A DNA stretch of 64,000 nucleotides, from contig JAIOAV010000008.1 in NCBI GenBank assembly GCA_019873665.1, positions 1 through 64,000 on the forward strand, in the 5' to 3' direction. Below the pieces are notes generated by a model. The model saw only the letters and a list, made by a program, of their open reading frames with translations. It was not told the origin of the DNA and searched no databases. The translations under genes were made by a program, and so were the position numbers. This DNA is from Chloroflexota bacterium (GTDB taxonomy: Bacteria; Chloroflexota; Anaerolineae; JAAYEA01). Positions 7,886-61,928 of the stretch are shown here, in pieces (the first letter of the stretch is position 1; each line of letters begins with the position of its first letter).

Positions 7886-9205
7886 TCAGGCGGAGAGGAG
7901 CAGGGCAAAATGCGGCCATTCGTAACGGCGCAACCGCCCCTGCTGCGCCGGCAGGTCTTCATCCACCACCTGATACGCTGCCCGTCCCGCCAGCACCTGC
8001 GCCAGCGCGTCCGCGAATTCGACGAGCACGCCGGGCTCCAAGCGTGGACGGTTATGCGAGGGGCATATCGCATCAAGCCGTGACGCCAACGCGGCCAGGC
8101 GAGCCGCCGATTGCGCCAGCATGTCCAGATCCGAATCGGCAAAGTGGCAATAGAGCGTGCCGGGGTAAAAAGAGTCCCCCGTAAAGAGCAAACGGTCCGC
8201 CTCATCGTACAGGCAGATGCTATCCGCCGAGTGGCCGGGCGTATGCCATACCTGCAACATCTTGCCGCCGAGGTCAATCACCTCTCCCTCCCGCAGGGGA
8301 TGCGTGATGGCAAAGGGCAGAATGCGATAGTCCTCTGGCCGAAATGGCTGCGGCACCGACCAGGGGCGATAGAAAGCCCCTGGTACTAGCGCGCCCATCG
8401 CCGCGATCTCGGCATGAGAGATGCCCTGCATGGCGCGCTGCCGCGCCAGCGGCGTGTCAAAGAGCGCGACCTCGGCAAAGCGGTGGTTGTCGCCGATGTG
8501 GTCATAGTGCGAGTGTGTGTTGACGACCAGGATCGGTTTGTCCGTCAGCCGCTGCACCTCCAGCTCGATGTTGCCGATACCCATGCCGGTATCAATCAGC
8601 GCCGCACGGCGCTCGCCGATTACCAGATACGACTGGGCTCGCTCGTAATGACCTGGCTCAGTCAGCGCGTATACGCCCCTGGCCACGAGCGTCGTCTCGA
8701 ACCATGACCCGCCCACACCGCGCGTCGCGACCACCTGGCACGGCTGGATGACGCCGCCGGTGCCGGGTATAGGCAGGATCAGCAGCAGATCTCCATCCGC
8801 CAGCCAATCCTTGGTGTCAACGCCGCGCACGATCCACTTGCCGGCCGCCCGCAGCCGGCGCGCATTGGGCACATCGCTGCGATCCGGCGCATCCGGCCCG
8901 CAGCCATAGGCAAAGGCGATCACGTCGCTATCCCAGAGCACAACGCGCTCTGTCGCCTCCGGCGTCAGATAGCCCCCCTCCGGCAGCACGAGCACCGGAA
9001 TAGAGCCGCTGCACGCTTTGTTGCGGACCGCCTCGACGTCAGACGCAGCAACGACAGGCTGAGAGAAACGCCCCAACGCCGACCAACCGGCCAGACCGGT
9101 CTTGTGCACCTCAACCCATCCCGCAGTCGGCTCGGGGGCTTCCCACCAGGTCTCGCACGGCGACGTGCTCGAGCGCCTTGTCAGATTCTGGAGCTTGACG
9201 GACAT
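7886..9205 (-). CDS. MBL-fold metallohydrolase with ~170 aa N-terminal extension
   Basis: NTHSHYDHIGDN, TPGHSADSICLY, LLFTGDSFYPG; ATG at 9205 one base after the upstream stop. Confidence 0.85.
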   Translation of the reverse strand: MSVKLQNLTRRSSTSPCETWWEAPEPTAGWVEVHKTGLAGWSALGRFSQPVVAASDVEAVRNKACSGSIPVLVLPEGGYLTPEATERVVLWDSDVIAFAYGCGPDAPDRSDVPNARRLRAAGKWIVRGVDTKDWLADGDLLLILPIPGTGGVIQPCQVVATRGVGGSWFETTLVARGVYALTEPGHYERAQSYLVIGERRAALIDTGMGIGNIELEVQRLTDKPILVVNTHSHYDHIGDNHRFAEVALFDTPLARQRAMQGISHAEIAAMGALVPGAFYRPWSVPQPFRPEDYRILPFAITHPLREGEVIDLGGKMLQVWHTPGHSADSICLYDEADRLLFTGDSFYPGTLYCHFADSDLDMLAQSAARLAALASRLDAICPSHNRPRLEPGVLVEFADALAQVLAGRAAYQVVDEDLPAQQGRLRRYEWPHFALLLSA

Positions 9206-9206
9206 C

Positions 9207-10112
9207 CTAACCACCTCCCATAGAGACTCGCAGTCCCCGTTCCTCAAAGCACGCCGCCGCGAGATGCTTCTGCTCTTCGGTGAGCGGGACGAGGGCCAGA
9301 GGTGGCAGCGGGCTATCCAGACGCGGCAGCTTGCTCTCGCCCAGGCGATGATACGGTAGCAGATGCACTTCATCCAGTCCCAAATCACGGAGCAGCGCGG
9401 CGATCGCTCCCAGGTTTTCTGGTCGCGCTGTCATCGTTGGCACGATCGGCAGGCGCGGGATCACCGCGACGCCTCGTGCCACCAGACGACTCAAGTTGCC
9501 AAGGATCAGCGCGTTGTCCTGCCGCGTGAACTCGCGGTGCAGCGCGGCGTCAACAGCCTTGACGTCGTATAGGATCAGGTCGAGGTAAGGGAGGACGCTC
9601 TCCAGTATCTCCCAATCAGCAAAGCCGCACGTCTCCAGCGCCGTATGGAGCTGGCTCTCCTTGCACAGTCGCAGGAACTCGCGCAGCGCCAGCGGCTGCA
9701 TGGTCGGCTCGCCACCCGAGACGGTAACGCCGCCGCCCGACGTGCGATAGAACGGCTCGTCGCGCCGCACCTCCTGCAATAGCTCCTCCGGCGTGTAGTA
9801 ACGGCCCACGACGCGCAGCGCTTCGGCAAAACAGACCTCCGCGCATTTGCCACAGCGTGTGCACTTGTCCCGGATGATGCGGCTCTCCCCCTGATACGTG
9901 ATCGCCCCCTGCGGGCACACCTCCTGGCACTTGCCACAGCCAATGCAAAGGTTGGCGTAGAACGCCATCTCTGGGTGTGGCAGCAGCCCTTCCGGATTCT
10001 GGCACCAGCGGCAACGCAGGGGACATCCCTTGAAAAACACCAGGGTGCGAATGCCGGGCCCATCGTGTAGCGAGAATCGTTGGATATCAAAGACAAGGGC
10101 TTCGCAGCGCAT
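9207..10112 (-). CDS. glycyl-radical enzyme activating protein (radical SAM, ferredoxin-containing)
   Basis: FSLHDGPGIRTLVFFKGCPLRCRWCQNPEG (CxxxCxxC), two Cys clusters CIGCGKCQEVCP and CTRCGKCAEVC, GGGVTVSGGEPTMQP; alternative start at 10127. Confidence 0.93.
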   Translation of the reverse strand: MRCEALVFDIQRFSLHDGPGIRTLVFFKGCPLRCRWCQNPEGLLPHPEMAFYANLCIGCGKCQEVCPQGAITYQGESRIIRDKCTRCGKCAEVCFAEALRVVGRYYTPEELLQEVRRDEPFYRTSGGGVTVSGGEPTMQPLALREFLRLCKESQLHTALETCGFADWEILESVLPYLDLILYDVKAVDAALHREFTRQDNALILGNLSRLVARGVAVIPRLPIVPTMTARPENLGAIAALLRDLGLDEVHLLPYHRLGESKLPRLDSPLPPLALVPLTEEQKHLAAACFEERGLRVSMGGG

Positions 10113-10264
10113 GCCGATCTCCTTCATCAGGTAGCGGTGATTATACACGGGCGGCCCGATCGGGTCAAAAGGAATGGATCGAGCCGCGTCAAGCGCGGCG
10201 ATTTCGTCGCATACCGCAAGCGTGGTAGAATGCGCCAGACACACCAACATACCGTTCCAGGAGG

Positions 10265-11173
10265 ATGACCATGACACGTTTTGCCGGCGTGTGGCCTGCG
10301 CTGGTTACACCGCTCACGCCCGATGATCAGATCAATGTGGCTGCCACGCGGCGGCTGGTGGAGCATCTGCTCAAAACCGGCATCGGTGGCCTGTACGTCG
10401 GCGGCAGCACCGGCGAGGGTGTCCTTCTGCCGACTGCCACCCGCCAGCGGCTGGCAGAGGTGGTGATCGAGCAGGTGAACCACCGCGTGCCGGTGATGGT
10501 GCACGTCGGCGCGGCGGCCACCGCCGACGCCGTGACGCTGGCCGCCCACGCCGCTGCCAGCGGCGCGGACGCCGTGTCCGCCGTTCCCCCCTTTTACTTC
10601 CAGGTTGGCTTTCGCGGCATCAAGGAGCACTACCAGAGGATCGCCGATGCCTCTCCCCTGCCGCTGTACCTGTATTACATCCCCAGCGCTACAGGGGTGA
10701 ACCTGACCGCGGCGCAGATGGCCGAGCTATGCCAGATATCGCATGTGCGCGGTTTCAAGTACACCGCCTACGACCTCCATCTGCTGGAGCAGATCATGGC
10801 GCTGACCGGCGGCAAGATGAACGTCTTCAGCGGGCCAGATCAGCTCTTCCTCCCCTTCCTGGCGCTGGGAGTGGATGGCGCCATCGGCACGACGTACAAC
10901 GTGCTCGCCAGCCACTATGTGCGGCTCTACGGCGCCTTTCAGCAGGGGGATATGGCAACGGCGCGCCGTCTGCAATCGCAGGCGAATCGCGTCATTGACG
11001 TCTTTGTGGGCTATGGCGGTCTGCCGGCCGTCAAGGAGATGATGCGCTTCATCGGGCTGGACTGCGGCGATTGCCGTCGTCCCCTGCGCAAGCTGGACGA
11101 GGGCGAAGTCGCCGCGCTGCGCGCCGCACTGCAAGAGGCACACTTCTGGGAGCTGGCTGACATCGCCGCATAG
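10265..11173 (+). CDS. nanA: N-acetylneuraminate lyase / DHDPS superfamily aldolase (NanA-like)
   Basis: GLYVGGSTGEG, LYYIPSATGVNL, GFKYTAYDLHLLEQI (Schiff-base Lys region), GVDGAIGTTYNV. Confidence 0.75.
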   Translation: MTMTRFAGVWPALVTPLTPDDQINVAATRRLVEHLLKTGIGGLYVGGSTGEGVLLPTATRQRLAEVVIEQVNHRVPVMVHVGAAATADAVTLAAHAAASGADAVSAVPPFYFQVGFRGIKEHYQRIADASPLPLYLYYIPSATGVNLTAAQMAELCQISHVRGFKYTAYDLHLLEQIMALTGGKMNVFSGPDQLFLPFLALGVDGAIGTTYNVLASHYVRLYGAFQQGDMATARRLQSQANRVIDVFVGYGGLPAVKEMMRFIGLDCGDCRRPLRKLDEGEVAALRAALQEAHFWELADIAA

Positions 11174-11211
11174 GACATTGGACAGCGGGCAGCTTTGCGC
11201 GTATAATCCGC

Positions 11212-11354
11212 TGCCTGTAGCCTGGGGCGTATGTGGGCCAGCAAGTAGAGCATATGCGAGGGTGGCGGAGTCCCGCCGGCCGCATTGTCGGTCAGAGTCA
11301 GTGGGCAGAGCAGGGCGAGGCCCCGAATGTGCCAAGTGCATATTGCCACAGGCA
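11212..11354 (+). ncRNA. candidate structured 5' leader RNA
   Basis: TGCCTGT (11212-11218) is the exact reverse complement of ACAGGCA (11348-11354); inner ATATGC (11252-11257) pairs GCATAT (11338-11343); local GGCGG/CCGCC hairpin; SD and ATG follow directly. Confidence 0.35.
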
Positions 11355-11374
11355 AACCATAATCGGAGGGATGA

Positions 11375-12421
11375 ATGAAGCCACTCAACTTTGCCATCAT
11401 CGGCGGGGGCAACATCGGTCGCGTCCATATGGACGCCATCTCCCACATTCCGGATGCCAGAGTGAGCGTCGTCTGCGATGTCTCGCAGGAGAGGGGCTGC
11501 GCTCTCGCCGCCGCGTGCGATGCCTGCTGGGTCGCGAGCTACGAGGAGACTGTGGCGCGACCTGACGTAGATGTGGTTTCCATCTGCACCCCCAGCGGCA
11601 CACACGCCGAGGTTGCTGTCGCCGCGGCCCGCGCCGGGAAACACGTCATCGTCGAGAAGCCCATTGATGTCACGTTGTCGCGTGTTGACCAGATCATCGC
11701 GGCAGCGACAGAGGCAGGCGTCAAGCTCGCTTGCATCTTTCCCCTCCGCTTCATGGAAGGCGTCCACTATACTCGGGAGGCAGTGATGGCGGGTCGTCTG
11801 GGGCGGCTGACGCTGGTGGATGCTTACATCAAGTGGTATCGGCCACAGTCGTACTACACGGGCAGTTGGCGCGGCACGTGGGCGCTGGATGGCGGCGGCG
11901 CGCTGATGAACCAGGGCATCCACAGCATTGACCTCTTGCAGTGGTTCGGCGGCCCCATCAGCACGATCTACGGCCGCACCGCGACACTGGCGCACGAGAT
12001 GGAGACGGAGGACACCGCTGCTGCCGTGCTCACCTTTGACAACGGCGCTATGGGCGTCATCGAGGCCACAACCGCCAGCTGGCCTGGCGATGAGGCGCGG
12101 GTAGAGTTGCATGGCGACCGGGGCACGATCGTGCTGGAGCAGGGGCGCATCGTCCGCTGGAAGCTGGTGGATGCGCCGCCAGGCGAGGAGGAGCGGATGC
12201 TATCGCTGGAAGGGTATCTGGGCAGCGGCGCGCAGGATCCGATGGGGATCAGCTACGAATTGCACCGCCGCCAGCTACAGGATATGGTAGACGCGATTCG
12301 CGAGGACCGCGCGCCAGCCGTGAATGGCGCCGAAGGGCGCAAGGCGGTGGAGATCATCCGCGCCATCTATCGGTCTGCCAAGACGGGTCAGACGGCGCAT
12401 CTGCCGCTGGTGGAATCGTAA
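11375..12421 (+). CDS. Gfo/Idh/MocA family NAD(P)-dependent oxidoreductase
   Basis: [44 protein letters not shown]. Confidence 0.95.
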
Positions 12422-35030: not shown

Positions 35031-38000
35031 ATGAAGCGGTTTGACATCGCCCCCTTTGCTTTGCCCAATGGCCCCCGTGGCGAGCTCCTGTTCGAGGAAG
35101 CGCGGGACGTGCAGGCGGTGGAGGTCGTCTTCGCAGGCGCCGCGCCGCGCGAGGCCAAGCTCCAGTACAAGCGCAAGACATGGCCGCAGTCACGCTTTGA
35201 GTTCCCGGCGAACAGGGACGTGGAGCGCCCGATGCACTTCGGGTGGCAGCGGATGGACGACCTTTTCACCCCCGAGTGGGTAGACGCCGCCGTAGAGGTC
35301 ACACCCGCTGGCCCCCATACCCTAGCTTTCACCTTCAAGCCGCTCCAGACCGAGATTCCCGATTTTCCCGGCGCCGATGACTACAACGTGACCTATCGCC
35401 GCACCGTGGGCGTCCGCGTGGCTGGAAGCGAGGTCCCCGTGCGTGCGATGCGCGTCTATACCACCTCGCAGCCAACCCGGAGCGCGCTGCGCGTCGAGCT
35501 GCACGCCGGCAGACAGATCGCGGCCCCGTACATCGAGGTCTCCGGGTACAACGCGGTGGTCCGCCGCGCCACAGGTGTGGCCGAAACCGTCGCATCCGGG
35601 GGCCGTGTACGTGTGGACACGGCAGGGCTGCGCTCCTTCGGCCTGCAAGTCGAGCACATGACTCCCGCCCACCGCTACGCCCACGACGAGGGTCATCTCC
35701 TTTTCACTCTGGGGGAGGAAGCCTTCACCATCTCCCTGGCGGCGCTGGAGGCAGAGGGCCCGATCTGGTACGCCGAGGCAGGGGTGTATATCGCGCTGGC
35801 CGACGATGCCACGACCTACGAGCAGTATCGCGCGCGCATTGCGGGCTCGCGCACCATCGCGCAGCAGGTGGCGGAGCGCCCCGAGCAATCGCTGGCCGGC
35901 GCGATGAACGGCCAGCCGCGCCCGCACCCGATCCCGTATTGTTTCGGCTGCAAACACGCCCGGCAAAAGTTCTGGGTCGAGCCGTGCGGCGACCTGCAAC
36001 TGACTGCCTGGCCGGTGACCAGGCTGCCCGGCGCCGACACGCCCAAGTGGAAGAACAAGGGGAGCGCGCGCTACTTTTTCGGGCTCGACCGCTGGGCGCC
36101 AGAGGGGCGGCACAACGACCCCTGGCCGGTGATGGCTTACAACTTGCATTTCCGGCGCGGCGATGTGCGGCTGCAGGAAAAGTGCTTCGCCGTGCCGCTG
36201 GCGCAGTCTATCCTAGCCGGCGAGCCCGCGCCCGATGCCACGATAGTGGCTCTGGTGCGCTTTAGCTTCGAGAACACCGGCGACCGTCCGAAGACCGCCG
36301 AGCTGCCGCTGGCCTATAGCAGCAACGCGCCGCGAGCTGTGAACCGCCGCCAGGAGCTGAGCCGCGGGTCACGCAGCCAGACCGACACGCTGATCCCGCT
36401 GTGCGAGCACGAAAAGCTGATCCTGCAGGGAGACTGCGTGCTGGGCGAGTTCCAGGGCGCGCCGGTGCTCCGCCTGCAATACGAGACGGACATGGAGACA
36501 GCCATCGTCGCGGACGGTGTGCGTTTCCACAAGGAGTTGCGGCCCGGCGAGCGCTGTGAGCTGCTGATGCGTATTCCGTACGTCGCCCTGGAGTCGGCGG
36601 CGGAGGTCGAGGCACTGCGCAAGCTTGATTTTGGCCGGTGCTACGACGAGATGGCGCGGTTCTGGCGCGCGGAGAGTCGCAAGGGGGCGCAGATCCGCAC
36701 GCCGGACCCGCACCTGAACGCCGTCTATGCCGGGCATCTGCCGATCGTGCTGATGGCCGACTTTGGCCACCCGGATGGCTCCGGGATCGTCAACACCTCG
36801 GTCGGGGCCACGACCTATGGGAACTACACCAACGAATCCGCGATGATCATCGAGGAGCTGGAGCAACGGGGACTGAAGGAGGAGGTTGAGCGGCGGCTGG
36901 CGGTGTGGGTCCGCTACCAGGGGACAGTCGGCCTGACGGGGCGCTTCACCGACCACGACGGCGTGTTCTTTGGCGCCGGCGGCCTGGAGTCGGGACACAG
37001 TTATAACCAGCACCACGGCTGGGCGCTCTGGGCCCTGGCGCGTCATTACCTGCACACGGGCGACCGCGCCTGGTTCGCGAGCGTGGCGGATAGCGTCGTG
37101 CGCGGCGCAGAGTGGATCGTCCGGCAGAGGAGGGAGACCACTGGTGACTTGCCGCATTCGCGCGGCTGGGAGTGCGGGTTCCTGCCGGCGGGCGCGCTGG
37201 AGGACGTGGACGACTTTTTCTACTGGCTGAGCACCAACTGCCTCACCTGGCGCGGGCTGGATGCGGCCGCGACCGCGCTAGAGGAGTACGGGCATCCGGA
37301 GGCGGCACGATACCGCCGAGAGGCAGAGGCCTTTCGCGCCAACCTGCTCCGCGGATACGAGACCTCGCGCCGGCACAGCCCGCTTATCCGCCTGCGGGAC
37401 GGGCGCTGGATACCGCACTACCCCTCGCGCCTGTACTGCCGGGGCCGTGACTATGGCTGGATTCGCGAGGTGCTGGAGGGCTCAGTGTACCTGTTGCTCT
37501 CCGGCCTCTATGCGCCCGAGAGTGTAGAAGGCGGCTGGATCCTCGACGATTTCAACGACACCCGCTACATGAACCCACCTTTCGGCTACCGGATAGACGA
37601 CCCTTTGACTCAATGGTATGACTGCGGCGGTTTTTCGGCGCAGCCAAACCTGCTCGCCGGCCTACTGCCGTACCTCGACCGCGACGAGATCGAGGTCTAT
37701 CTGTGGATGTTCTTCAACGCCTGGGCGGCCTGCTACCGCGAGGAGGTGCAGGCCATAGTGGAGCATCCGCAGCCGGTCCTGGGTTTTTCCAACAGCGCGC
37801 CCTTCAAGACGAGCGATCAGTCCAACGCGATGAAGTGGCTCGCCTACATGTTCGTCTACGAGCGGGATGGCCTCCTGCATCTGGGGCGTGCGCTGCCGCG
37901 GGCCTGGTTCGCCGGCGAGGAGCCCTTCGGCGCCGAGCGACTCAGCACCCCTGCTGGCATCGTTTCCGTCGTCTACCGCCCGCAACCCGAGGCGGACCGC

Positions 38001-38192
38001 ATTGATGCGGAGGTTGAGCTCGCGCTGCGCCGCAGGCCGGAGCAGCTGCTGCTCCGTTTCCGCCATCCGCTCAAGAAACCCATCCGCTCCGTATCGGTTG
38101 CCAGCCACCCCCACAGAGCATTCGACGCGGAGAGCGGAGATGTCGAGCTCCCACCCACCAGCGGCAGGGTGCGCGTATCCGTGGCGTATTGA
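35031..38192 (+). CDS. 1053-aa uncharacterised protein, probable (alpha/alpha)6-barrel glycosidase-like
   Basis: N-terminal beta-rich region followed by helical repeats (HSYNQHHGWALWALARHYLHTGD..., FFYWLSTNCLTWRGLDAAATAL...). Confidence 0.5.
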   Translation: MKRFDIAPFALPNGPRGELLFEEARDVQAVEVVFAGAAPREAKLQYKRKTWPQSRFEFPANRDVERPMHFGWQRMDDLFTPEWVDAAVEVTPAGPHTLAFTFKPLQTEIPDFPGADDYNVTYRRTVGVRVAGSEVPVRAMRVYTTSQPTRSALRVELHAGRQIAAPYIEVSGYNAVVRRATGVAETVASGGRVRVDTAGLRSFGLQVEHMTPAHRYAHDEGHLLFTLGEEAFTISLAALEAEGPIWYAEAGVYIALADDATTYEQYRARIAGSRTIAQQVAERPEQSLAGAMNGQPRPHPIPYCFGCKHARQKFWVEPCGDLQLTAWPVTRLPGADTPKWKNKGSARYFFGLDRWAPEGRHNDPWPVMAYNLHFRRGDVRLQEKCFAVPLAQSILAGEPAPDATIVALVRFSFENTGDRPKTAELPLAYSSNAPRAVNRRQELSRGSRSQTDTLIPLCEHEKLILQGDCVLGEFQGAPVLRLQYETDMETAIVADGVRFHKELRPGERCELLMRIPYVALESAAEVEALRKLDFGRCYDEMARFWRAESRKGAQIRTPDPHLNAVYAGHLPIVLMADFGHPDGSGIVNTSVGATTYGNYTNESAMIIEELEQRGLKEEVERRLAVWVRYQGTVGLTGRFTDHDGVFFGAGGLESGHSYNQHHGWALWALARHYLHTGDRAWFASVADSVVRGAEWIVRQRRETTGDLPHSRGWECGFLPAGALEDVDDFFYWLSTNCLTWRGLDAAATALEEYGHPEAARYRREAEAFRANLLRGYETSRRHSPLIRLRDGRWIPHYPSRLYCRGRDYGWIREVLEGSVYLLLSGLYAPESVEGGWILDDFNDTRYMNPPFGYRIDDPLTQWYDCGGFSAQPNLLAGLLPYLDRDEIEVYLWMFFNAWAACYREEVQAIVEHPQPVLGFSNSAPFKTSDQSNAMKWLAYMFVYERDGLLHLGRALPRAWFAGEEPFGAERLSTPAGIVSVVYRPQPEADRIDAEVELALRRRPEQLLLRFRHPLKKPIRSVSVASHPHRAFDAESGDVELPPTSGRVRVSVAY

Positions 38193-38347: not shown

Positions 38348-40837
38348 ATGACCGGAAAGGAAGCGAATCTGACTTATGAAGGTCGGATCGCGTTCGATGA
38401 CGAGACGACGACCGCCCTGCAACATCCCTGTCTGCCTGATGTGGAGACGCCCATGAGCCGCCGGTATCTGGCGCTCTTGCAGGGATGGATTCCCATCGGG
38501 ATGCAGTACTTCCAGGAGTGGTCGAAACGTCCCAATTGCGGCCATTTCCTCGGCGGGTGGTACTTCTACGGTTCGGAGACCATCGGCCCGCTGCACGCGC
38601 TGGCCGCTGTGATCTCCTCCCCCGAGTACGATCCCGCTATCACCGGATTGAGCCGAGACGAACTGATCAGTGTGGCGGTCAAGGCGCTGCGCTATGCGTG
38701 CTTTACCCACGACACCGGCCCCGCGGATTGCGTGCGCGAATATCAGCACTTGCCCGGACTGCGCCGCAGGAACGATCACCCGTGGCTGGGGCCCAAATGG
38801 GGCGAGCGCGGCAAGGGGTTCTTCCCGGAAAGCCAGTGTGGCCGCAATCTGGCGACGCTGGTGAAATCTGCTGTCATCCTTCGTCCCTGGCTCGATCGGG
38901 AGACGTGGATGATGGTGGCGGCCATCTGCGCGGACTATCTGGAACGCTTCGCCGACATGGCGCCGCGGTCAGGGGTGTATTACGATACGCAGGCGGAGGA
39001 GAACGCCTGGACGGCGCTGGGATTGGCCGCCGCGCGGCTGTTTCTCGGCCGGCACGAGTCAGCGCAGAAATGGGAACAGGCTGCCCGCCGCTGGATGTTG
39101 TGCGCTGCTGCCGCGCCTGAAGACATGCGCGACCAGCGACAGCTTGATGGCAGGAGCGTGCGCGAATGGTGCGGCAGGACGTTCACGCTCTTGCCCGATC
39201 TCATGGCCGAGAATCATGGCATGGTTCATCCCAGCTATACCAGCTCGCCTATTGCCCTGATAGGCTCTGCCGTGAATCTGTATCGCATGTTTGACGAGCC
39301 AGAGCCACCACATTGGACGTGGCACCGGCAGGACATCTATGACAATCTGAAACGGCTATCCGACCGGTACGGCATGTTCCACCCCGTGCAGGGGATGGAC
39401 TGGCCGTATGTGAGTCCCTGCAGTCTGCCCGTAGTGCATGCCTTTGCGCGCCTGTATCTGGAAGACCCGGATGCCGCGTATTACGAAGAGGCAGCGCTTA
39501 CACTTGCCGAGACGATCATCAGGGGAAACGGCGGCCGAGTGTATCACCCGGATGTGGTCGCGCACTGCCATAACGTGCAGGACCCCATGATCCTCTGGGA
39601 ATCGCAGATCGCCAGCCTCGTTCCTCCGTACTTCGCGCACCGCCTCTGCGCGGGCAAGCCGGTGCCGGAGACGCCGGCAACGGACGTCCCGGACAAGTAT
39701 GCCGGGGTCAAGACGTATCCCCATTCGGGATTCGTCTTTCACCGTCACGCCAGAGGGCAGACCTCCTTCAGTTGGCGCAACGAGATCATGGCGCTGCCGC
39801 TGACGCGCGAAGGCCTGCTGACGGTCGCGCCGTCCTTCGGCTCGATCCTCGGCAAGGTGCAGGTCAAGGAGTATGCCGCGAGCCAGCGGCTGGAGCTGGT
39901 GGATGTGAATGACCAGAAGACGGGGTTCACTGCCGTCATGCGCGTTTCGCTTCATGAGGAGAGCATCCGCCAAGATGTGCTGCTGGCCTCTTTGCCGGAT
40001 GGCCGGATGGTGTGCCGGGAGGCGTTCCGCACGTTAAAGGCGTGCACGGTGGAACGGGTGCAGCAGGGGTATCTGGAGATCATGAACGAGATGTTCCCGG
40101 AACTGATAACCAATTGCGTCGGCCACCGCAAGCTCTACACTCCTGACGGCGAATACCTCTTTCCCAGCCTCGTCAAACCGACACCGGACGACGACACGAG
40201 GGTGGAGTTCAGAGAACCGCGATGGCTGAATCTCGACGATCGGATCGGAATCGTCATCGCGTCGGCGGGACATCGCGCCCTGTACCATAACCGCCACTTT
40301 TTCCAACCGTATCATGCGGTGAGCGACGAGCTGTTTCTGAATCTGCAGGAAGAGGCGGGGCGCTACTCGGCAGACGAGGTCATGGCGGATATCCTGTTCA
40401 TGCTATGTCCGGAACAGCACCACGACGAAACGCCTGATCAGACGCTGGTCACGGCAGACATGTCCCCCGCCGGCACCTGGGGCATCCTGGCGGGCACGAC
40501 CCTCGTCATCGGCAATCTCGATGCCGCGTCCGGGTGGTATGCCTTTCGCTTCCCCCGCCCGCGAATAGTCCCCGTCTTTGCTGGCATGATGCGGATCATG
40601 AGCGACGAGGTAGTCTACGAGACAGAGCTGCAGCGCGGTCGCGGACATTACCTCGAACCGCTGGCGACAGTGGCAAGCACCGATCCCGTAACGATCGCGG
40701 CGTTGCCCAACGGACAGTTGTACGCCACCAATCCCGGGCGAGGCAGGGCGGTGGTCTCCGTGCAGCGCGGCTCGAGCGAGATCACCGTATCGCTAGAGCC
40801 GGGCGAATCGGCCGCGCTTGTAATGGAGAACCGATGA
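38348..40837 (+). CDS. 829-aa uncharacterised protein, heparinase/polysaccharide-lyase-like architecture
   Basis: Helical toroid-like N half, beta-rich C half; no signal peptide seen. Confidence 0.45.
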   Translation: MTGKEANLTYEGRIAFDDETTTALQHPCLPDVETPMSRRYLALLQGWIPIGMQYFQEWSKRPNCGHFLGGWYFYGSETIGPLHALAAVISSPEYDPAITGLSRDELISVAVKALRYACFTHDTGPADCVREYQHLPGLRRRNDHPWLGPKWGERGKGFFPESQCGRNLATLVKSAVILRPWLDRETWMMVAAICADYLERFADMAPRSGVYYDTQAEENAWTALGLAAARLFLGRHESAQKWEQAARRWMLCAAAAPEDMRDQRQLDGRSVREWCGRTFTLLPDLMAENHGMVHPSYTSSPIALIGSAVNLYRMFDEPEPPHWTWHRQDIYDNLKRLSDRYGMFHPVQGMDWPYVSPCSLPVVHAFARLYLEDPDAAYYEEAALTLAETIIRGNGGRVYHPDVVAHCHNVQDPMILWESQIASLVPPYFAHRLCAGKPVPETPATDVPDKYAGVKTYPHSGFVFHRHARGQTSFSWRNEIMALPLTREGLLTVAPSFGSILGKVQVKEYAASQRLELVDVNDQKTGFTAVMRVSLHEESIRQDVLLASLPDGRMVCREAFRTLKACTVERVQQGYLEIMNEMFPELITNCVGHRKLYTPDGEYLFPSLVKPTPDDDTRVEFREPRWLNLDDRIGIVIASAGHRALYHNRHFFQPYHAVSDELFLNLQEEAGRYSADEVMADILFMLCPEQHHDETPDQTLVTADMSPAGTWGILAGTTLVIGNLDAASGWYAFRFPRPRIVPVFAGMMRIMSDEVVYETELQRGRGHYLEPLATVASTDPVTIAALPNGQLYATNPGRGRAVVSVQRGSSEITVSLEPGESAALVMENR

Positions 40838-47615: not shown

Positions 47616-47989
47616 GACGCCTCCACTCGCTCGTGTGATCTCACATCGAATCTACAAATATATTCAGATTCCCGTTTTTTTCAAAATCCAGGTCGCAGGT
47701 TTGACCCTGAGAGCGCCACCCTTCACGGTGCCCCACCGCTATGCCGCTGTGCCCGAGCAATACGGGCTCCTGTCAACCTCCCGGTCGGCCGTTCGCGGGC
47801 ACTTGCCGGTAGCAAGCCACAACTTCTCATAATAGCGGCCAAATGTGCAGATCTTGTGGAGGAGAGAGTCCAGATCAGCGATGACCGGCGTGATCGCGTT
47901 GTCATGCCAACGCGTACGCATCAAGTTGACAACTGCACCGGTGTCGCTACACTGCATACGGAGTGAACCAACACACGAAGGAGGTGCCG

Positions 47990-49150
47990 ATGGGCGAGAA
48001 GCCAATCATCGTCGGGGTCGAAATCCACGAGTTCGAGTACAAGCTGCCCAACCTGGGCACCGATTACAATGGGTTCAACATCATCTACGAGCCCGGGCAC
48101 ACCCTGACACGACGCGCCTGCGCCGTCAAGATGCACACCAGCACGGGCATCGTCGGCGAGACGCTCTCCAGCAGCGCCGAGTTGGCTACCTGGCCTATGT
48201 TCATACACTACCTGCTCGGCAAGAACGCGCTCGAGCGCGAAACCCTTTATCTGGACATCAAACGCGCCCTGCGACAGATGGCGCGCGTGGGCATCGGGCC
48301 GTTGGATGTCCTCCTATGGGATATCGCCGGCAAGCACTATGGCGCGCCCATCTGGGAGCTGCTGGGTGGCACATCTCGCCCCCTGCCGTGTTATGCCAGC
48401 ACCTATCACGGCGACGACCAGCCGGGCGGCCTCAGCTCGCCGGAGGCATATGCCGACTTTGCTGCGCAGTGTCTGGGGATGGGCTACCCCGCCTTCAAGA
48501 TCCATGGCTGGGGGAACGCACCCGTACAACGCGAGGTGGCGACCGTCCACGCCGTGGGTCAGCGCGTCGGCGGCCAGATGGATCTCATGCTGGACCCGGC
48601 ATGCGAGCTGAAGAGATTCGGCGATGCGCTCAAGGTGGGCTGGGCATGCGATGAGGAGCGCTTCTTTTGGTGGGAGGATCCATACAACGACGGGGGCATC
48701 TCGCAGTTTGGGCACCGCAAGCTGCGCCAGCTCGTGCGAACACCGCTGTTGCAGACGGAGCACGTGCGTTCGTTGCAGCCGCATGTGGATTTCGCCTTGG
48801 CGGATGCCACCGATTTCGTGCGCGGCGACATCGGTTACGACGGCATCTCCGGCGTCATCAAGCTGGCGCATGCCGCCGAAGGTCTCGGCATTGACATCGA
48901 GTTCCACGGCGCTGGCCCGGCGCAACGCCATTGCATGACCGCCATCCGCAACACGAACTACTATGAGATGGGACTGCTCCACCCCAAAGCGCCCGCCTCC
49001 AGCATTCCGGTCTATCTCAACTACCGCGATGGGCTGGACGCTATTGACGCAAATGGCTGCGTCTATGCCCCAGACGGGGCCGGGCTTGGCGTCGAGCTGG
49101 ATTGGGACTATATAATGAAACATCGTACCGATGGGTGCGAATACCGATAA
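47990..49150 (+). CDS. enolase superfamily / mandelate racemase-like sugar-acid dehydratase
   Basis: GIGPLDVLLWDIAGKHYGAPIWELLGG; YPAFKIHGWG; DLMLDPAC; FHGAGPAQRHCMTAI. Confidence 0.88.
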   Translation: MGEKPIIVGVEIHEFEYKLPNLGTDYNGFNIIYEPGHTLTRRACAVKMHTSTGIVGETLSSSAELATWPMFIHYLLGKNALERETLYLDIKRALRQMARVGIGPLDVLLWDIAGKHYGAPIWELLGGTSRPLPCYASTYHGDDQPGGLSSPEAYADFAAQCLGMGYPAFKIHGWGNAPVQREVATVHAVGQRVGGQMDLMLDPACELKRFGDALKVGWACDEERFFWWEDPYNDGGISQFGHRKLRQLVRTPLLQTEHVRSLQPHVDFALADATDFVRGDIGYDGISGVIKLAHAAEGLGIDIEFHGAGPAQRHCMTAIRNTNYYEMGLLHPKAPASSIPVYLNYRDGLDAIDANGCVYAPDGAGLGVELDWDYIMKHRTDGCEYR

Positions 49151-49168: not shown

Positions 49169-51340
49169 ATGCTCTACCCACAACAGAATGATGTGCGAAA
49201 CATGTTGGACCTGTCCGGCTTTTGGGATTTCCAGTTGGATCCCAATGATGTGGGCGAGGCGCAGGGATGGTATAACGGGCTGAGTGCGCCGCGCCAGATC
49301 GCCGTCCCCGGTAGCTGGAACGAGCAGTTCCAGGATACCCGCGAGTACATGGATCGCGTGTGGTACGTGCGGCGCTTCCACGTGCCGCGTGGGTGGCAGG
49401 GGCAAGAGGTGTGGGTGCGCGTCGGCTCCGCCACCTATGCCGCTAAGGTCTGGGTGAACGGGCAGCCGGTGGGAATGCACGAGGGCGGCAATCTCCCCTT
49501 CGACCTGGAGATCACCCGCCAGACCAAATGGGATGCGGAGAATGTCATCGCCATCACCGTGGAGAACCGCCTTCTGCCGACACGCGTCCCGCCGGGAAAC
49601 CCCGCAGAGGCCGGCGGGATGGGCGGCTTTATGCGCAGCTACCCCGCCACTTCGTATGACTTTTTCCCGTACGGCGGCCTCCACCGACCTGTGCTGCTGT
49701 ATTCCGTCCCCGCCGCGCGCATCGCGGACATCACCGTCGTTACCGACACCGCGGGCAGCGATGGCTTGGTCAAGGTTACTGTCTTGAAATCGGGCAACGC
49801 CAGTGGCGGCCGCATGCGCCTGCACGGCGCCAACGCGCCCGGCGAGACGACACTGGCATTCCGAGGCGACGTGGCGGAAGCCACCATCAGGGTCCCCAAC
49901 GCCCGCCTCTGGTCGCCGGACGACCCTTATCTGTACCCGCTCGAGATCACGCTCTCCGATGGCGGCCGCGTGCTTGATCGCTACCACCTTGAGGTGGGCA
50001 TTCGCACCATCGCGGTGGACGGCCTACAGATCCTGCTCAATGGCCAGCCGATCTTTCTCAAGGGGTTTGGCAAGCACGAGGATTTCCCGATCCATGGGCG
50101 CGGGCTGAATATGCCGCTTCTTATCAAGGATGCGTCGCTGCTCAAGTGGATCGGCGCGAACTCGTACCGCACCTCGCACTATCCCTACTCGGACGAGGCG
50201 ATGCAACTGGCAGACCGTGCCGGCTTTCTCATCGTGGACGAGACCCCCGCCGTCGGCCTGTCTTTCGGTGATAGCGATGAGGATATCGCCGCACGGCTGG
50301 CGCAGACCAAACAGGCGCTGCGCGAGCTGATCGCGCGTGACAAGAACCATCCCAGCGTCATCATGTGGAGCCTCGCCAACGAGCCGTTCATCGGCAAGGG
50401 CGGCATGGGCGGGATGATGGGCGGACGCAGTGAGGCAGAGCCGAGAGCGGAACCGTTCTTCTGCGAGTTGTTCGCCCTGGCGCGGGAGCTGGACCCCACC
50501 CGCCTGGTAACCGTCGAGGCGCCGCTAGGCCCCATCGAGGCGCCATGGCAGGGCGAGGCGGACGTGATCTGTATCCACCGCTATACCGGCTGGTACATGC
50601 TGGGCGGGCGTTTGGATGTGGCGCTGCAGATGCTGGAGGCGGATCTGGATCATGTGCACCAGACGTGGCACAAGCCGGTGATGATCACCGAGTTCGGCAC
50701 GGACACGTTGGCCGGACATCACGCCGACCCGCCGGAGATGTGGAGCGAAGAATACCAGGCCGAATACCTGAAGCGGTATCTGGATATCGCCGCCCGCAAA
50801 GAGTATATCGCCGGACTGCACGTCTGGAATTTCGCCGATTTCAAGACCAGTCAGGGGATCATCCGCGCGGGGGGCATGAACCTCAAGGGTGTGTTCACGC
50901 GGGATCGCCGCCCCAAGATGGCCGCGCATCTGCTGCGCAGCCGTTGGGCCGCTGTCGCTGCGCCGAGCACAGAACCCGTCACGCCGCCGACGCCCGCCGC
51001 TCCCACCGCAGAGCCGCCATCCCCGCCGCCGGAGCCGGAGGTGCCGGAAGCGCTGGTCGCGCTGGCACAAAAGCTGGACGGCAAGAATCCACACCTCAAC
51101 TCCGTGATCGAGTTCCGTCTGGGTGAGGAAGAGGTCTATCGGCTCGTCTTTGTCGCAGGCGCCTGCCACGCCGAGGCCGGCCCGGGCCAGGGCCCCGCGA
51201 CGGTGACGCTGACGATCAAGCCCGAGGACGCGGAGAAGCTCCTCAAGGGTGAGCTAAATGCTATGGCGGCATTGATGTCCGGGCGCATCAAAGTCGCCGG
51301 CGACGTGACGGCGCTCATGGTGCTGCGCAGCGCGATGTAG
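49169..51340 (+). CDS. GH2 glycosidase with C-terminal SCP2 sterol-binding-like domain
   Basis: GH2 motifs NGQPIFLKGFGKHEDFPIHGRG, RDKNHPSVIMWSLANEP, MITEFGTDT; Pro/Thr/Ala linker; C-term PATVTLTIKPEDAEKLLKGELNAMAALMSGRIKVAGDVTALMVL. Confidence 0.88.
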   Translation: MLYPQQNDVRNMLDLSGFWDFQLDPNDVGEAQGWYNGLSAPRQIAVPGSWNEQFQDTREYMDRVWYVRRFHVPRGWQGQEVWVRVGSATYAAKVWVNGQPVGMHEGGNLPFDLEITRQTKWDAENVIAITVENRLLPTRVPPGNPAEAGGMGGFMRSYPATSYDFFPYGGLHRPVLLYSVPAARIADITVVTDTAGSDGLVKVTVLKSGNASGGRMRLHGANAPGETTLAFRGDVAEATIRVPNARLWSPDDPYLYPLEITLSDGGRVLDRYHLEVGIRTIAVDGLQILLNGQPIFLKGFGKHEDFPIHGRGLNMPLLIKDASLLKWIGANSYRTSHYPYSDEAMQLADRAGFLIVDETPAVGLSFGDSDEDIAARLAQTKQALRELIARDKNHPSVIMWSLANEPFIGKGGMGGMMGGRSEAEPRAEPFFCELFALARELDPTRLVTVEAPLGPIEAPWQGEADVICIHRYTGWYMLGGRLDVALQMLEADLDHVHQTWHKPVMITEFGTDTLAGHHADPPEMWSEEYQAEYLKRYLDIAARKEYIAGLHVWNFADFKTSQGIIRAGGMNLKGVFTRDRRPKMAAHLLRSRWAAVAAPSTEPVTPPTPAAPTAEPPSPPPEPEVPEALVALAQKLDGKNPHLNSVIEFRLGEEEVYRLVFVAGACHAEAGPGQGPATVTLTIKPEDAEKLLKGELNAMAALMSGRIKVAGDVTALMVLRSAM

Positions 51341-52110: not shown

Positions 52111-52884
52111 ATGAACAAAGATCAGCAACGTCAGATCGTCAATGTCTTGGCGACGCTGCTCGTGATCGTGGTCAACGTGCTCGCCAACGCGCTGCCGCTG
52201 AACGGCCAGAACACCGGGGAGATCTCGGATCGCTTTGCCATCTACTTCGTGCCCGCGGGCTACGTCTTTTCCATCTGGGGCCTCATCTATCTGGGGTTGA
52301 TCGCCTTTGCGGTGTACCAGGCGTTGCCCTCTCAGCGCGAGAACCGGGCAGTGCGGCGTATCGGCTATCTCTATGCGCTGAGCTGCGTGGCTAACACCGT
52401 CTGGATCTTTCTCTGGCACTATAATGTGTTCTCGCTGACCATCGTCGCCATGGCGATCCTCTTGCTTTCCCTCATCGCCATCTACCTGCGGCTGGGGATC
52501 GGACGCGCGGCGGTGTCGAACGCTATCAAGTGGTGCGTCCACATCCCCTTCAGCCTCTACCTCGGCTGGATCACCGTCGCCACCATCGCCAATGCGACGC
52601 AAGTGCTCTACTACTGGGGGTGGAACGGCGCGCCGCTCAGCCCGCAGGTGTGGGCCGTGATCATGCTCATCGTCGGCGCGGCAGTCGCATCGCTGGTTGG
52701 CATCAATCGGGGCGATATCGCCTACATCCTCGTCATCGTCTGGGCCTATGTGGGCATCGCCGTCAAGTTCCCCGACGAGCTGGCCATCGCCATCACCGCC
52801 ATCGTCGCCGCCATCGTCGTCGCGCTCAGCCTGGTGCGCGGCGTACCGCGCCGCCGCACGTGGCCAAGGCCCACAGCGACGTAA
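52111..52884 (+). CDS. TspO/MBR-like tryptophan-rich membrane protein
   Basis: PAGYVFSIWGLIYLGL, WIFLWHYNVFSL, multiple TM helices. Confidence 0.65.
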   Translation: MNKDQQRQIVNVLATLLVIVVNVLANALPLNGQNTGEISDRFAIYFVPAGYVFSIWGLIYLGLIAFAVYQALPSQRENRAVRRIGYLYALSCVANTVWIFLWHYNVFSLTIVAMAILLLSLIAIYLRLGIGRAAVSNAIKWCVHIPFSLYLGWITVATIANATQVLYYWGWNGAPLSPQVWAVIMLIVGAAVASLVGINRGDIAYILVIVWAYVGIAVKFPDELAIAITAIVAAIVVALSLVRGVPRRRTWPRPTAT

Positions 52885-52919
52885 CAGGCTGCGCGCCGAA
52901 CCACACGACAGGGCAAGCC

Positions 52920-53951
52920 ATGCAGCAACACATCATATCCACTAAAGAGAGCCGGCAGTGGCAGGGGATCCCGGCCATCGAGCGCGCCCGCAACGGCCGC
53001 CTCTGGTGCGCGTTCTACAGCGGCGGCCCCAAAGAGCCTGACCCGGATAACTATATTCTGCTCACCACCAGCACCGATGACGGCGTCACCTGGTCGCCGC
53101 CTGCGCCCATCATCGCGCCGCCGGGCACGACGCGTGCCTACGATCCGGCGCTCTGGCACGACCTTCACGGGCGGCTCTGGCTGATCTATAACCTCGTCGA
53201 CCTGACGACGCGCGACTTTTCCGTGTGGGCCATCACCGCGGACAATGCCACCGGCCCGACGCCGCGCTGGAGTGCGCCGCGACGGATCGAGCTGGGCGTG
53301 CCTTTTGCCGTCCGGCTGAACAAGCCGATCGTGCTCTCCAGCGGCGACTGGCTTCTGCCGGTTACATGGGCCAGGATCGCACCAGAGGGGACGTGGTTCC
53401 CGCGCGACCAGCAGTTGCAGGGAGTGGCGATCTCCACCGACGATGGCGCGCACTGGAAGCTCTATGGCGCGGTGGAGGCGCCGCCCTGGGCGCTGGAGAA
53501 TATGCTGGTGGAGCGCCGCGACGGCACGGTGTGGATGCTGATCCGCACCGGCAGCGGCGTGATCTGGCAGAGCCTGTCGGCGGATGGCGGGCGTAGCTGG
53601 GCAGCCGGCGCGCCCACGTCCATTGTCAATCCCGGCACCCGCTTCTTCATCGGGCGGCTGGCCTCCGGGCGGCTCCTGCTGATCAACACGCCCGACCCCA
53701 GGCAGCGCAAGGGGCTGCGCGCTTATGTCAGCGAGCTGCAGGACGATGCTGCCTTTGGCGCGGGGCTAGAGCTGGATGCGCGCGACCGGGTGTCGTATCC
53801 TGATGCGGTGCAGGCCTCCGACGGGCGGATCTATGCGGTGCACGACTGCGACCGCAAGGGCCGGGGCGAGATCGTGCTGAGCGTGTTCACGGAGGAGGAG
53901 GTTTTGGCTGGTAGAGGGTTCATGCAAATACGTAGCGCGAAAAGCCTGTAA
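52920..53951 (+). CDS. sialidase-fold / BNR-repeat protein
   Basis: Asp-boxes STDDGVTW, STDDGAHW, SADGGRSW; QGIPAIERARNGRLW. Confidence 0.85.
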   Translation: MQQHIISTKESRQWQGIPAIERARNGRLWCAFYSGGPKEPDPDNYILLTTSTDDGVTWSPPAPIIAPPGTTRAYDPALWHDLHGRLWLIYNLVDLTTRDFSVWAITADNATGPTPRWSAPRRIELGVPFAVRLNKPIVLSSGDWLLPVTWARIAPEGTWFPRDQQLQGVAISTDDGAHWKLYGAVEAPPWALENMLVERRDGTVWMLIRTGSGVIWQSLSADGGRSWAAGAPTSIVNPGTRFFIGRLASGRLLLINTPDPRQRKGLRAYVSELQDDAAFGAGLELDARDRVSYPDAVQASDGRIYAVHDCDRKGRGEIVLSVFTEEEVLAGRGFMQIRSAKSL

Positions 53952-53959
53952 GGAGCAAT

Positions 53960-55414
53960 ATGCCACCCAACATCCTCATTTTCATGACCGACCAGGAGCG
54001 GGACGATGTCGTGCGCCCCGACCATCCCTGCCTCACGCCCAACGCCACACGTCTGGCGCGCGAGGGCATCCTGTTCACCGACGCCTATTGCCCGACGGCG
54101 CACTGCTGCCCCTCCCGCGCCACCTTCATGACCGGCCTCTATCCTAGCCGCCACGGCGTCTTCAATAACGTCTCCAACCCCACGCGCCTCAGCGTCGGCC
54201 TGAACCCCGGCATCGCCACTTTTGGCGAGCAGCTGCGCGCCGCGGGCTACAGCCTCGCCTATGCCGGCAAGTGGCACGTGGCGGATGACGAAGGCCCCGC
54301 CGACCGCGGCTGGCGCGAGCTGTATGTTACCTCGAGCAAGGGGGCATATCAGGAGCGCGGTCTCTTTCAGTACCGCGACGCGCCCAAGGATGCCGCCGGC
54401 CCGCGCGGGCGCGGGCAGGTGTTGCGCCCGGGCTGGGGCCACTATCAACTCTATGGGTCTTACCCCACCGACGGCCCCAAGGGCTATGAGGAGCACCGCG
54501 ACTATCGCGTGGTGCGCTCGGCGCTGGACGCGCTGCCCGCGCTGGCGGCGAGCGGCCAGCCGTGGTGCCTCTTCATTGGCCCCAGCGGCCCGCATGATCC
54601 CTTCATCGTGCCGGAGCGCTTTGCGCGCCTCTACGACCCGCGCGATATCCCGCTGCCGCCCAACTACTATGATTCGCTGGCCGACAAGCCGCGCGTCTAT
54701 CAGCGGATGCGGCAGCAATACTGGAGCCAGCTCACGCCGGACGAGGTGCGCGAGTCCATCGCCCACTACTACGCCTATTGCAGCATGGAGGATGCGATGT
54801 TCGGCGAGGTGCTGGACGCGCTGCAGCAGACCGGGCAGGCAGATGACACGCTGGTGCTGCGCCTGAGCGACCATGGCGAATACGTCGGCGCGCACGGCCT
54901 CTACTGCAAAGGCGTGCCCGCCTTCCGCGAGGCGTACCACGTGGTCGCGCTGGCCCGCTGGCCGAAAGGGATCGCGCGCCCCGGTCGCGCCGTGGATGCA
55001 TTCATCACGCACGCCGACTGGGCGCCCACACTACTGGAGCTGGCCGGCCTCCCTGTGCCGGATGGGCTGACGGGACGGAGCATCCTCCCCTTCTTCCGCG
55101 ATGAGACGCCCGCCGATTGGCCAGACACGATCTACACGCAGCTCAACGGCGTCGAGCTGTACTACTCGCAGCGCGCCGTCATCACCAAAGAGTTCAAGTA
55201 CGTCTATAACGGCTTTGATTTCGACGAGCTATACGACTTGCGCCACGACCCGCACGAGATGATTAACCTCGCCGCACACCCGGACTATCAGGAGATCAAG
55301 AAAGACTTAGTGCGGCGCATGTGGCGCTTTGCGGACCAGGAGCAGGACATCATCTTTAACAGCTATGCCACGGTGGCACTGGCCCCATGGGGACCTGGCA
55401 TCGCCGCGCCATAG
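53960..55414 (+). CDS. sulfatase, no signal peptide apparent
   Basis: MPPNILIFMTDQERDD; CCPSRATFMTGLYPSRHG; GKWHVADDEG; LSDHGEYVGAHG. Confidence 0.93.
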   Translation: MPPNILIFMTDQERDDVVRPDHPCLTPNATRLAREGILFTDAYCPTAHCCPSRATFMTGLYPSRHGVFNNVSNPTRLSVGLNPGIATFGEQLRAAGYSLAYAGKWHVADDEGPADRGWRELYVTSSKGAYQERGLFQYRDAPKDAAGPRGRGQVLRPGWGHYQLYGSYPTDGPKGYEEHRDYRVVRSALDALPALAASGQPWCLFIGPSGPHDPFIVPERFARLYDPRDIPLPPNYYDSLADKPRVYQRMRQQYWSQLTPDEVRESIAHYYAYCSMEDAMFGEVLDALQQTGQADDTLVLRLSDHGEYVGAHGLYCKGVPAFREAYHVVALARWPKGIARPGRAVDAFITHADWAPTLLELAGLPVPDGLTGRSILPFFRDETPADWPDTIYTQLNGVELYYSQRAVITKEFKYVYNGFDFDELYDLRHDPHEMINLAAHPDYQEIKKDLVRRMWRFADQEQDIIFNSYATVALAPWGPGIAAP

Positions 55415-60388: not shown

Positions 60389-60850
60389 ATGGTGCAAATC
60401 CGCCCATTCCGCAGCGCCGACCTGGAGCGTTGTGTTGTGCTCTTTATCACCATTTTCAGCGAGGCCCCGTGGCACGATCATTGGCCATCCTTTGCCCGCG
60501 CACGCGCCTTCCTCGCCGATATCATTGGAACACCAGGCTTTCGCGGCTTTGTGGCTGAGGAGGATGGGCACCTCGTGGCACTATGCTTCGGTCATAAGCG
60601 CCGCTGGTGGCAGGGAGACGAGTACTTTATAAACGAGCTGGGCGTGCTCCCGGACCGTCAGCGGGAGGGGATTGGCAGCCAGTTGTTGAGCTATGTGCGA
60701 GACCAGTTGCGGCAGGAAGGCGTGCAGTACATCTCGCTGCTCACCGAGCGGAGCATCCCGGCCGAGCAATTCTACGTCAAAGAGGGATTCCAGAAGGATA
60801 AGGACGTGATCTACATGTATCAGTATCTTGAGCCAAGCCCAGATGACTGA
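60389..60850 (+). CDS. GNAT acetyltransferase
   Basis: VQIRPFRSADLERCVV; ELGVLPDRQREGIGSQLLSYV. Confidence 0.9.
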   Translation: MVQIRPFRSADLERCVVLFITIFSEAPWHDHWPSFARARAFLADIIGTPGFRGFVAEEDGHLVALCFGHKRRWWQGDEYFINELGVLPDRQREGIGSQLLSYVRDQLRQEGVQYISLLTERSIPAEQFYVKEGFQKDKDVIYMYQYLEPSPDD

Positions 60851-61928
60851 GGGGGTCATGATCCGTCAAGACGAAGCGCTGTTTGTCGCCGCGCGCGGCG
60901 GGTATCACACCTATCGCATCCCGGCGCTAGTTGTTACGCTGCGAGGCACGGTGCTTGCTTTCTGCGAGGGACGACGCGATAGCGCCCGCGACAGCGGCGC
61001 CATTGACATCCTCTGCCGCCGCAGCACCGACGGAGGCCAGACGTGGGAAGCGCCCCGCCTGGCCGTCTCCGGCCAGGGAGACACGGCAGGGAATCCCGCG
61101 CCGGTGGTGGATCGGCGGACGGGGATCATCTGGCTTCCCTTTTGCCGCAACCTGGCGGCTGGCCCGGAGCCGATGATCATCGCCGGCCAGGCGCCGCGCA
61201 CGGTCTGGCTGACATGGAGCACCGATGACGGCGTGAGCTGGGTGACGCCGCGTGAGATCACGGCGCAGGTGAAGCAGCCTGATTGGACTTGGTATGCCAC
61301 CGGTCCCGGCCATAGCCTGCAGCTTGCCAACGGGCGGCTGTTGATCCCGTGCGACCACGTGGTGGGCGACGGAAGGACGGCGGCTACGGTACGCTCACAC
61401 GTTATCTACAGCGACGACGCCGGCGATACGTGGCAGATCGGCGGCACCGCGCAGCCGGGGACCAACGAGTGCGTGGCAGTAGAGACGGTGGATGGCAGGC
61501 TATATCTCAACTGCCGCAACCACCGCGATGATCCGGCCCGCGTGTACCGGCGTGCGTATGCCTGGAGCCGCGACGGTGGGCTGTCCTTTGCTGAGTTCGG
61601 CGTCGCGGCGGAGCTGGTCGAGCCGGTGTGCCAGGCCAGCGCCATCCGCTACGGCGACGCGCATAGTAGTGGCCGGAGCCGCATCCTCTTTGCAAATCCG
61701 GCCAGCAGCGCCCGCGAGCGGCTCACAGTGCGCATCAGCGAGGATGAGTGCCAGAGCTGGGGAGCGGGCAGGATGTTGCACGCCGGTCCTGCCGCATATT
61801 CCGACCTGGCGGTGGCGCACGATGGGACGATCCTCTGCCTCTATGAATGCGGGGTGCACGCGCCATATGAGACGATCACTCTGTCGCGCCTGACGCTAGA
61901 TTGGCTCACAGCACACCAGGCCATCTAG
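60828..61928 (+). CDS. exo-alpha-sialidase (GH33-like)
   Basis: YRIPAL (FRIP-like), Asp-boxes STDGGQTW, STDDGVSW, SDDAGDTW; CRNHR segment. Confidence 0.92.
   Translation: MSQAQMTEGVMIRQDEALFVAARGGYHTYRIPALVVTLRGTVLAFCEGRRDSARDSGAIDILCRRSTDGGQTWEAPRLAVSGQGDTAGNPAPVVDRRTGIIWLPFCRNLAAGPEPMIIAGQAPRTVWLTWSTDDGVSWVTPREITAQVKQPDWTWYATGPGHSLQLANGRLLIPCDHVVGDGRTAATVRSHVIYSDDAGDTWQIGGTAQPGTNECVAVETVDGRLYLNCRNHRDDPARVYRRAYAWSRDGGLSFAEFGVAAELVEPVCQASAIRYGDAHSSGRSRILFANPASSARERLTVRISEDECQSWGAGRMLHAGPAAYSDLAVAHDGTILCLYECGVHAPYETITLSRLTLDWLTAHQAI

Follow-up and report, generated by a model that had tools for sequence, protein, structure and literature searches.

Why would an SCP2 domain, a fold known from lipid and quinone pathways, be joined to an enzyme that removes sugars? 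The question is raised by one gene in the 64,000-nucleotide stretch of a Chloroflexota genome analysed here (the window), where positions 49169..51340 of the + strand translate as a single ORF of 723 aa with no internal stop and a codon-position GC content (0.67/0.46/0.82) like that of the neighbouring genes. The initial annotation placed a GH2 glycosidase and an SCP2 domain in this one uninterrupted frame, and both are indeed there, as the Pfam GH2 domains and PF02036 all score above cut-off. Searches of the open-access literature found no paper that describes SCP2 in one protein with a glucuronidase or other glycoside hydrolase, and none on SCP2 in Anaerolineae. Both halves belong to known families; what is new is a selected beta-glucuronidase (GUS)–SCP2 architecture, which may already be listed in automated databases as a domain combination.

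The catalytic half, described at first only as a GH2 core, can be named more exactly. Glyco_hydro_2_N, Glyco_hydro_2, and Glyco_hydro_2_C all match above cut-off across aa 14–597, the NCBIfam beta-glucuronidase equivalog PRK10150 scores 594.5 bits against a cut-off of 544, and the closest PDB matches are beta-glucuronidases. Profile and PDB matches delimit a catalytic module (aa 1–595; 49169..50953, +) made up of GH2 sugar-binding, immunoglobulin-like, and TIM-barrel domains, which aligns end to end with the E. coli-type enzyme (UidA/GUS, GH2); the linker and C-terminal SCP2 domain of the fused protein have no counterpart there. The E. coli catalytic glutamates align with the acid/base E405, in the motif ANEP (aa 403–406; glutamate codon 50381..50383, +), and the nucleophile E508, in ITEFG (50690..50692, +), and both are invariant in 24 relatives. 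In the same set the N-x-K motif, which binds the glucuronate carboxylate, is nearly invariant (N571-L-K573; 50879..50887, +), reading N-L-K or N-Q-K in the aligned fused proteins. By profile and alignment, aa 1–597 is a complete, family-typical beta-glucuronidase of the GUS type, and we infer that it would hydrolyse beta-glucuronides. Active-site loops are the usual explanation for substrate choice in GUS enzymes. The conserved TPAVG and ELIARDKNHP segments enclose active-site loop 1 in E. coli GUS, and in the alignment the fused protein is ~15 residues shorter between them, which makes it probably a no-loop or mini-loop type (loop classes named in PMC10162664). No signal peptide was seen by eye in its N-terminus (MLYPQQNDVRNM), and on that basis the enzyme would be cytoplasmic.

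The C-terminal domain had been placed at about aa 610–723. Its presence stands and its start does not: the ordered part begins near aa 625 (aa about 625–723; 51041..51337, +) and the Pfam match near aa 642. In the full protein, PF02036 matches aa 642–721 (E 7.8e-11, 42.7 bits versus a cut-off of 21.3), and the C-terminal 95 aa alone reach 47.6 bits. PDB sequence matches to this part are the SCP2 domains of SCPx, rabbit SCP2, and MFE-2 (peroxisomal multifunctional enzyme type 2). The SCP2 fold is a five-stranded sheet with helices, and in this family it typically has a hydrophobic pocket for sterol or acyl-lipid ligands. AlphaFold2 prediction of the C-terminal 95 aa from four sequences gave a best model with a mean pLDDT of 77.7 (52–61 for the other four models), and each of the 46 PDB fold matches at E ≤ 0.001 is either an SCP2 domain or an alkylsulfatase that includes one. 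The best of them is 1ikt, the liganded SCP2-like domain of human MFE-2 (E 1.2e-7, TMq 0.81). An ordinary carbohydrate-binding module is ruled out, as only SCP2 and the related Alkyl_sulf_C profiles match this region and the fold search returns SCP2. Profile, PDB sequences, and modelled fold thus agree that the C-terminus is a genuine SCP2-fold domain. Modelled at full length, the protein is mostly ordered in its GUS part and in SCP2 (aa 625–722), and the fast-evolving Pro/Ala/Glu-rich linker between them (aa 596–622; 50954..51034, +) is predicted to be disordered (pLDDT < 50), so that SCP2 most likely hangs from the enzyme on a flexible tether.

Two adjacent genes joined by an assembly error would imitate such a protein. 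In a sample of 396 genomes of the same Chloroflexota class, about 51 carry a GUS of this kind (counted at > 100 bits with C-terminal query), and 11 of these, in six families (f1, f4, f9, f23, f27, and f50), have the SCP2 part: G000, G001, G041, G085, G100, G109, G137, G266, G322, G330, and G386. The gene is split across two contig ends in G001; named carriers are Anaerolineae AUK314, Caldilineae J4, and Chloroflexota USDE_metabat.60. Because ten further genomes, assembled independently, carry the same join, with SCP2 parts 33%–47% identical (those aligned) that form a single clade, an artefact is refuted; nothing was found in its favour, and we give it next to no credence. Across 85,462 species genomes, a pattern scan with a reach limited to close relatives detected the fusion solely in Chloroflexota MAGs. 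Among the matches listed, no fused frame was seen in a sample of other Chloroflexota classes, and none on plasmids, where the listed matches end at aa 593.

The history of the fusion bears on whether the domain matters. The GUS tree splits the fused proteins between two subclades that also contain unfused ones, requiring at least five changes. That tree alone would permit two independent fusions (five changes), a possibility set aside because the SCP2 tree groups all ten of the fused-protein domains tested in one clade (support 100/95). A single fusion within one Chloroflexota class followed by losses is the simplest account of the two trees, and transfer of the fusion between lineages is possible. 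In G057 the GUS is 84% identical to that of its genus-mate G109 and the upstream neighbours are the same, but the gene stops at the GUS core, and neither tblastn nor inspection by eye found an SCP2 remnant behind it. On this comparison G057 is a clear case of SCP2 loss, giving at least one loss overall, and because the upstream gene neighbours stayed in place without it, SCP2 would not be required for catalysis. Where the domain is kept, it is kept for its sequence: between fused genes, dN/dS over these short regions, by a simple counting method, is 0.01–0.35 for SCP2, 0.10–0.21 for GUS, and 0.22–1.5 for the linker, and the SCP2 parts of G137 and G041 differ by a dS of 0.50 and a dN of 0.005. 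These values indicate purifying selection on SCP2 in many lineages while the linker drifts.

Gene neighbourhoods suggest what the enzyme is for. In the window, an enolase-superfamily protein of the mandelate racemase/muconate lactonising type is encoded 18 bp upstream (47963..49150, +); no NCBIfam equivalog matches it above cut-off, and its product is a probable sugar-acid dehydratase or related enzyme. Downstream in the window lie genes for ScpB, a TspO-like protein, a BNR-repeat protein, and a sulfatase. The fused gene stands near the glucuronate isomerase gene uxaC (equivalog above cut-off) in G100, near genes for D-mannonate oxidoreductase, phosphogluconate dehydrogenase (Gnd), an FGGY kinase, and a 2-hydroxyacid dehydrogenase in G266, and next to a GH3 glycosidase in G085 and G109. 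From their annotation, these neighbours point to growth on glucuronate.

SCP2 has other partners in this class. In G041, G137, and G322 the fused GUS lies one or two genes from a ~1300-aa protein joining an FGGY kinase, a 2-hydroxyacid dehydrogenase, SCP2, and a class II aldolase (1307 aa, with SCP2 at aa 953–1041; the frame is broken in two in G137). The SCP2 domains of this chain form a clade separate from those of the fused GUS (support 100/100). Roughly a dozen genomes in the class have the SCP2–aldolase piece, among them G266, where it and the fused GUS are on separate contigs. Other SCP2 domains of the class are joined to MFE-2-like enzymes, a luciferase-like monooxygenase, and FMN reductase-like proteins. 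Given so many partners, SCP2 is a general add-on that recurs in the sugar catabolism of the class and need not concern aglycones, so that an aglycone is not the only option for what it does here. Several of these loci were recorded in passing. The kinase–dehydrogenase–SCP2–aldolase protein is found at 8413-12336 (-) of L070, with relatives at L161, L162, L163, L068, and L168, and an aldehyde dehydrogenase gene adjoins it in G041 and G058. Luciferase-like monooxygenase– and FMN reductase-like–SCP2 loci lie at L075 1396-2880 (-), L077 2342-3514 (-), L160 288-1820 (-), and L165, and the L160 protein seems to contain two SCP2-like domains. A LysM–SCP2 protein and a protein with two SCP2 domains are encoded at L073 2065-3615 (-) and L074 1851-3413 (-), in genomes G303 and G324.

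Three known systems frame the possible roles. In MFE-2, SCPx, and the alkylsulfatases, the SCP2 domain is generally taken to hold a hydrophobic substrate or product. MFE-2, whose SCP2-like domain is the best fold match, is likewise an enzyme with SCP2 at its C-terminus, but there the partner is a fatty-acyl enzyme and here a glycosidase. The type III alkylsulfatases SdsA1, SdsAP, and Pisa1, which hydrolyse amphipathic conjugates, also end in an SCP2-like domain (TMq 0.75–0.86 in the fold search); they differ in that their catalytic domain has a metallo-beta-lactamase fold and in that a dimerisation domain precedes SCP2, where the fused GUS has a long disordered linker. UbiJ, the SCP2 subunit of a ubiquinone-making complex, matched the SCP2 part of the fused GUS in the fold search but is a separate subunit with no enzyme fusion. 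Modelling supports an interface role for it, linking the enzyme complex to the membrane, and so offers an earlier case in which SCP2 both holds lipid and acts as an assembly subunit (PMC9499169).

Our preferred reading, held tentatively, is that of a cytoplasmic GUS for growth on glucuronate in which SCP2 binds a hydrophobic aglycone or a lipid surface. The enzyme would strip glucuronic acid from imported glucuronides, while the swinging SCP2 would bind the aglycone (of plant, terpenoid, phenolic, or steroid type) or, alternatively, a lipid surface into which such conjugates partition. Binding would raise the local substrate concentration and take up the greasy product released, on the model of MFE-2, SCPx, and the alkylsulfatases. 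The identities of the two parts, the predicted tether, purifying selection, retention in 11 genomes of six families, and the glucuronate genes that accompany the fused gene in G100 and G266 are all consistent with it. An aglycone of the steroid, bile-acid, or sterol type is possible, but the neighbours of the fused genes examined included no recognisable genes for steroid or lipid degradation. Two further points weigh against an aglycone role: the kept upstream neighbours of G057, which lacks SCP2, and the nearby kinase–dehydrogenase–aldolase protein, whose SCP2 is of separate lineage and for which no lipophilic aglycone is expected. The latter leads to the chief rival, in which SCP2 is a localisation or assembly module that anchors several enzymes of sugar catabolism at the membrane or links them together, the released sugar being passed on from the importer. 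SCP2 domains of separate lineage in two enzymes of one neighbourhood (G041, G137, and G322; both in G266 on separate contigs) argue for this, as do the fold match to UbiJ and the interface role modelled for it (PMC9499169). Most sampled genomes with a fused GUS, including that of the window, show no SCP2–aldolase protein, however, and we regard an assembly role as a serious but somewhat doubtful alternative.

That SCP2 might serve only as a structural part, lending stability or promoting oligomerisation and binding no ligand in vivo, seems decidedly unlikely. Its repeated absence from close relatives (G057, with its 84% identical GUS; G003; and the f31 group) would be easily understood on those terms, but the strong selection on its sequence would not, and a long, predicted-disordered linker is more in keeping with a module that swings than with one that is rigidly packed. 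In SdsAP the dimer interface does include residues of several domains, but those domains are packed together (PMC5426288).

What becomes of glucuronidated steroids, drugs, and plant products is determined by beta-glucuronidases. If a glycosidase reached lipophilic conjugates by means of a lipid-binding domain that is under selection and flexibly tethered, the route would be a new one, and GUS–SCP2 a natural design for deconjugating hydrophobic molecules. Retention of the fusion in eleven or more related genomes suggests an enzyme that acts on greasy glucuronides or is active beside lipids. The fusion also shows SCP2 domains entering sugar metabolism, beyond the lipid and quinone pathways from which they are known. 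A bolder proposal, which we think rather improbable, is that this Chloroflexota class has turned SCP2 into a module used repeatedly in carbohydrate catabolism, joined in separate events to GUS and to the kinase–dehydrogenase–aldolase chain, for lipid-coupled glucuronide degradation. If so, sugar would be removed from amphipathic conjugates while SCP2 holds the lipid part or keeps the enzymes at the membrane.

Other features of the window deserve brief mention. Positions 52111-52884 (+), which follow the fused gene at a distance of about 800 bp, encode a TspO/MBR-like membrane protein that scores 23.6 bits against a Pfam cut-off of 24. TspO proteins bind sterols and porphyrins; ScpB stands between the two genes, and any link between them would be putative. 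A sulfatase with an SGSH-type C-terminus (53960-55414, +) adjoins a BNR-repeat (sialidase-like) protein in frame 52530-53951 (+), and a further BNR protein lies at 60828-61928. Two ORFs of 1053 and 829 aa (35031-38192 and 38348-40837, both +), with no Pfam match, have a gene-like codon bias and adjoin two amidohydrolases and an MttB-type methyltransferase.
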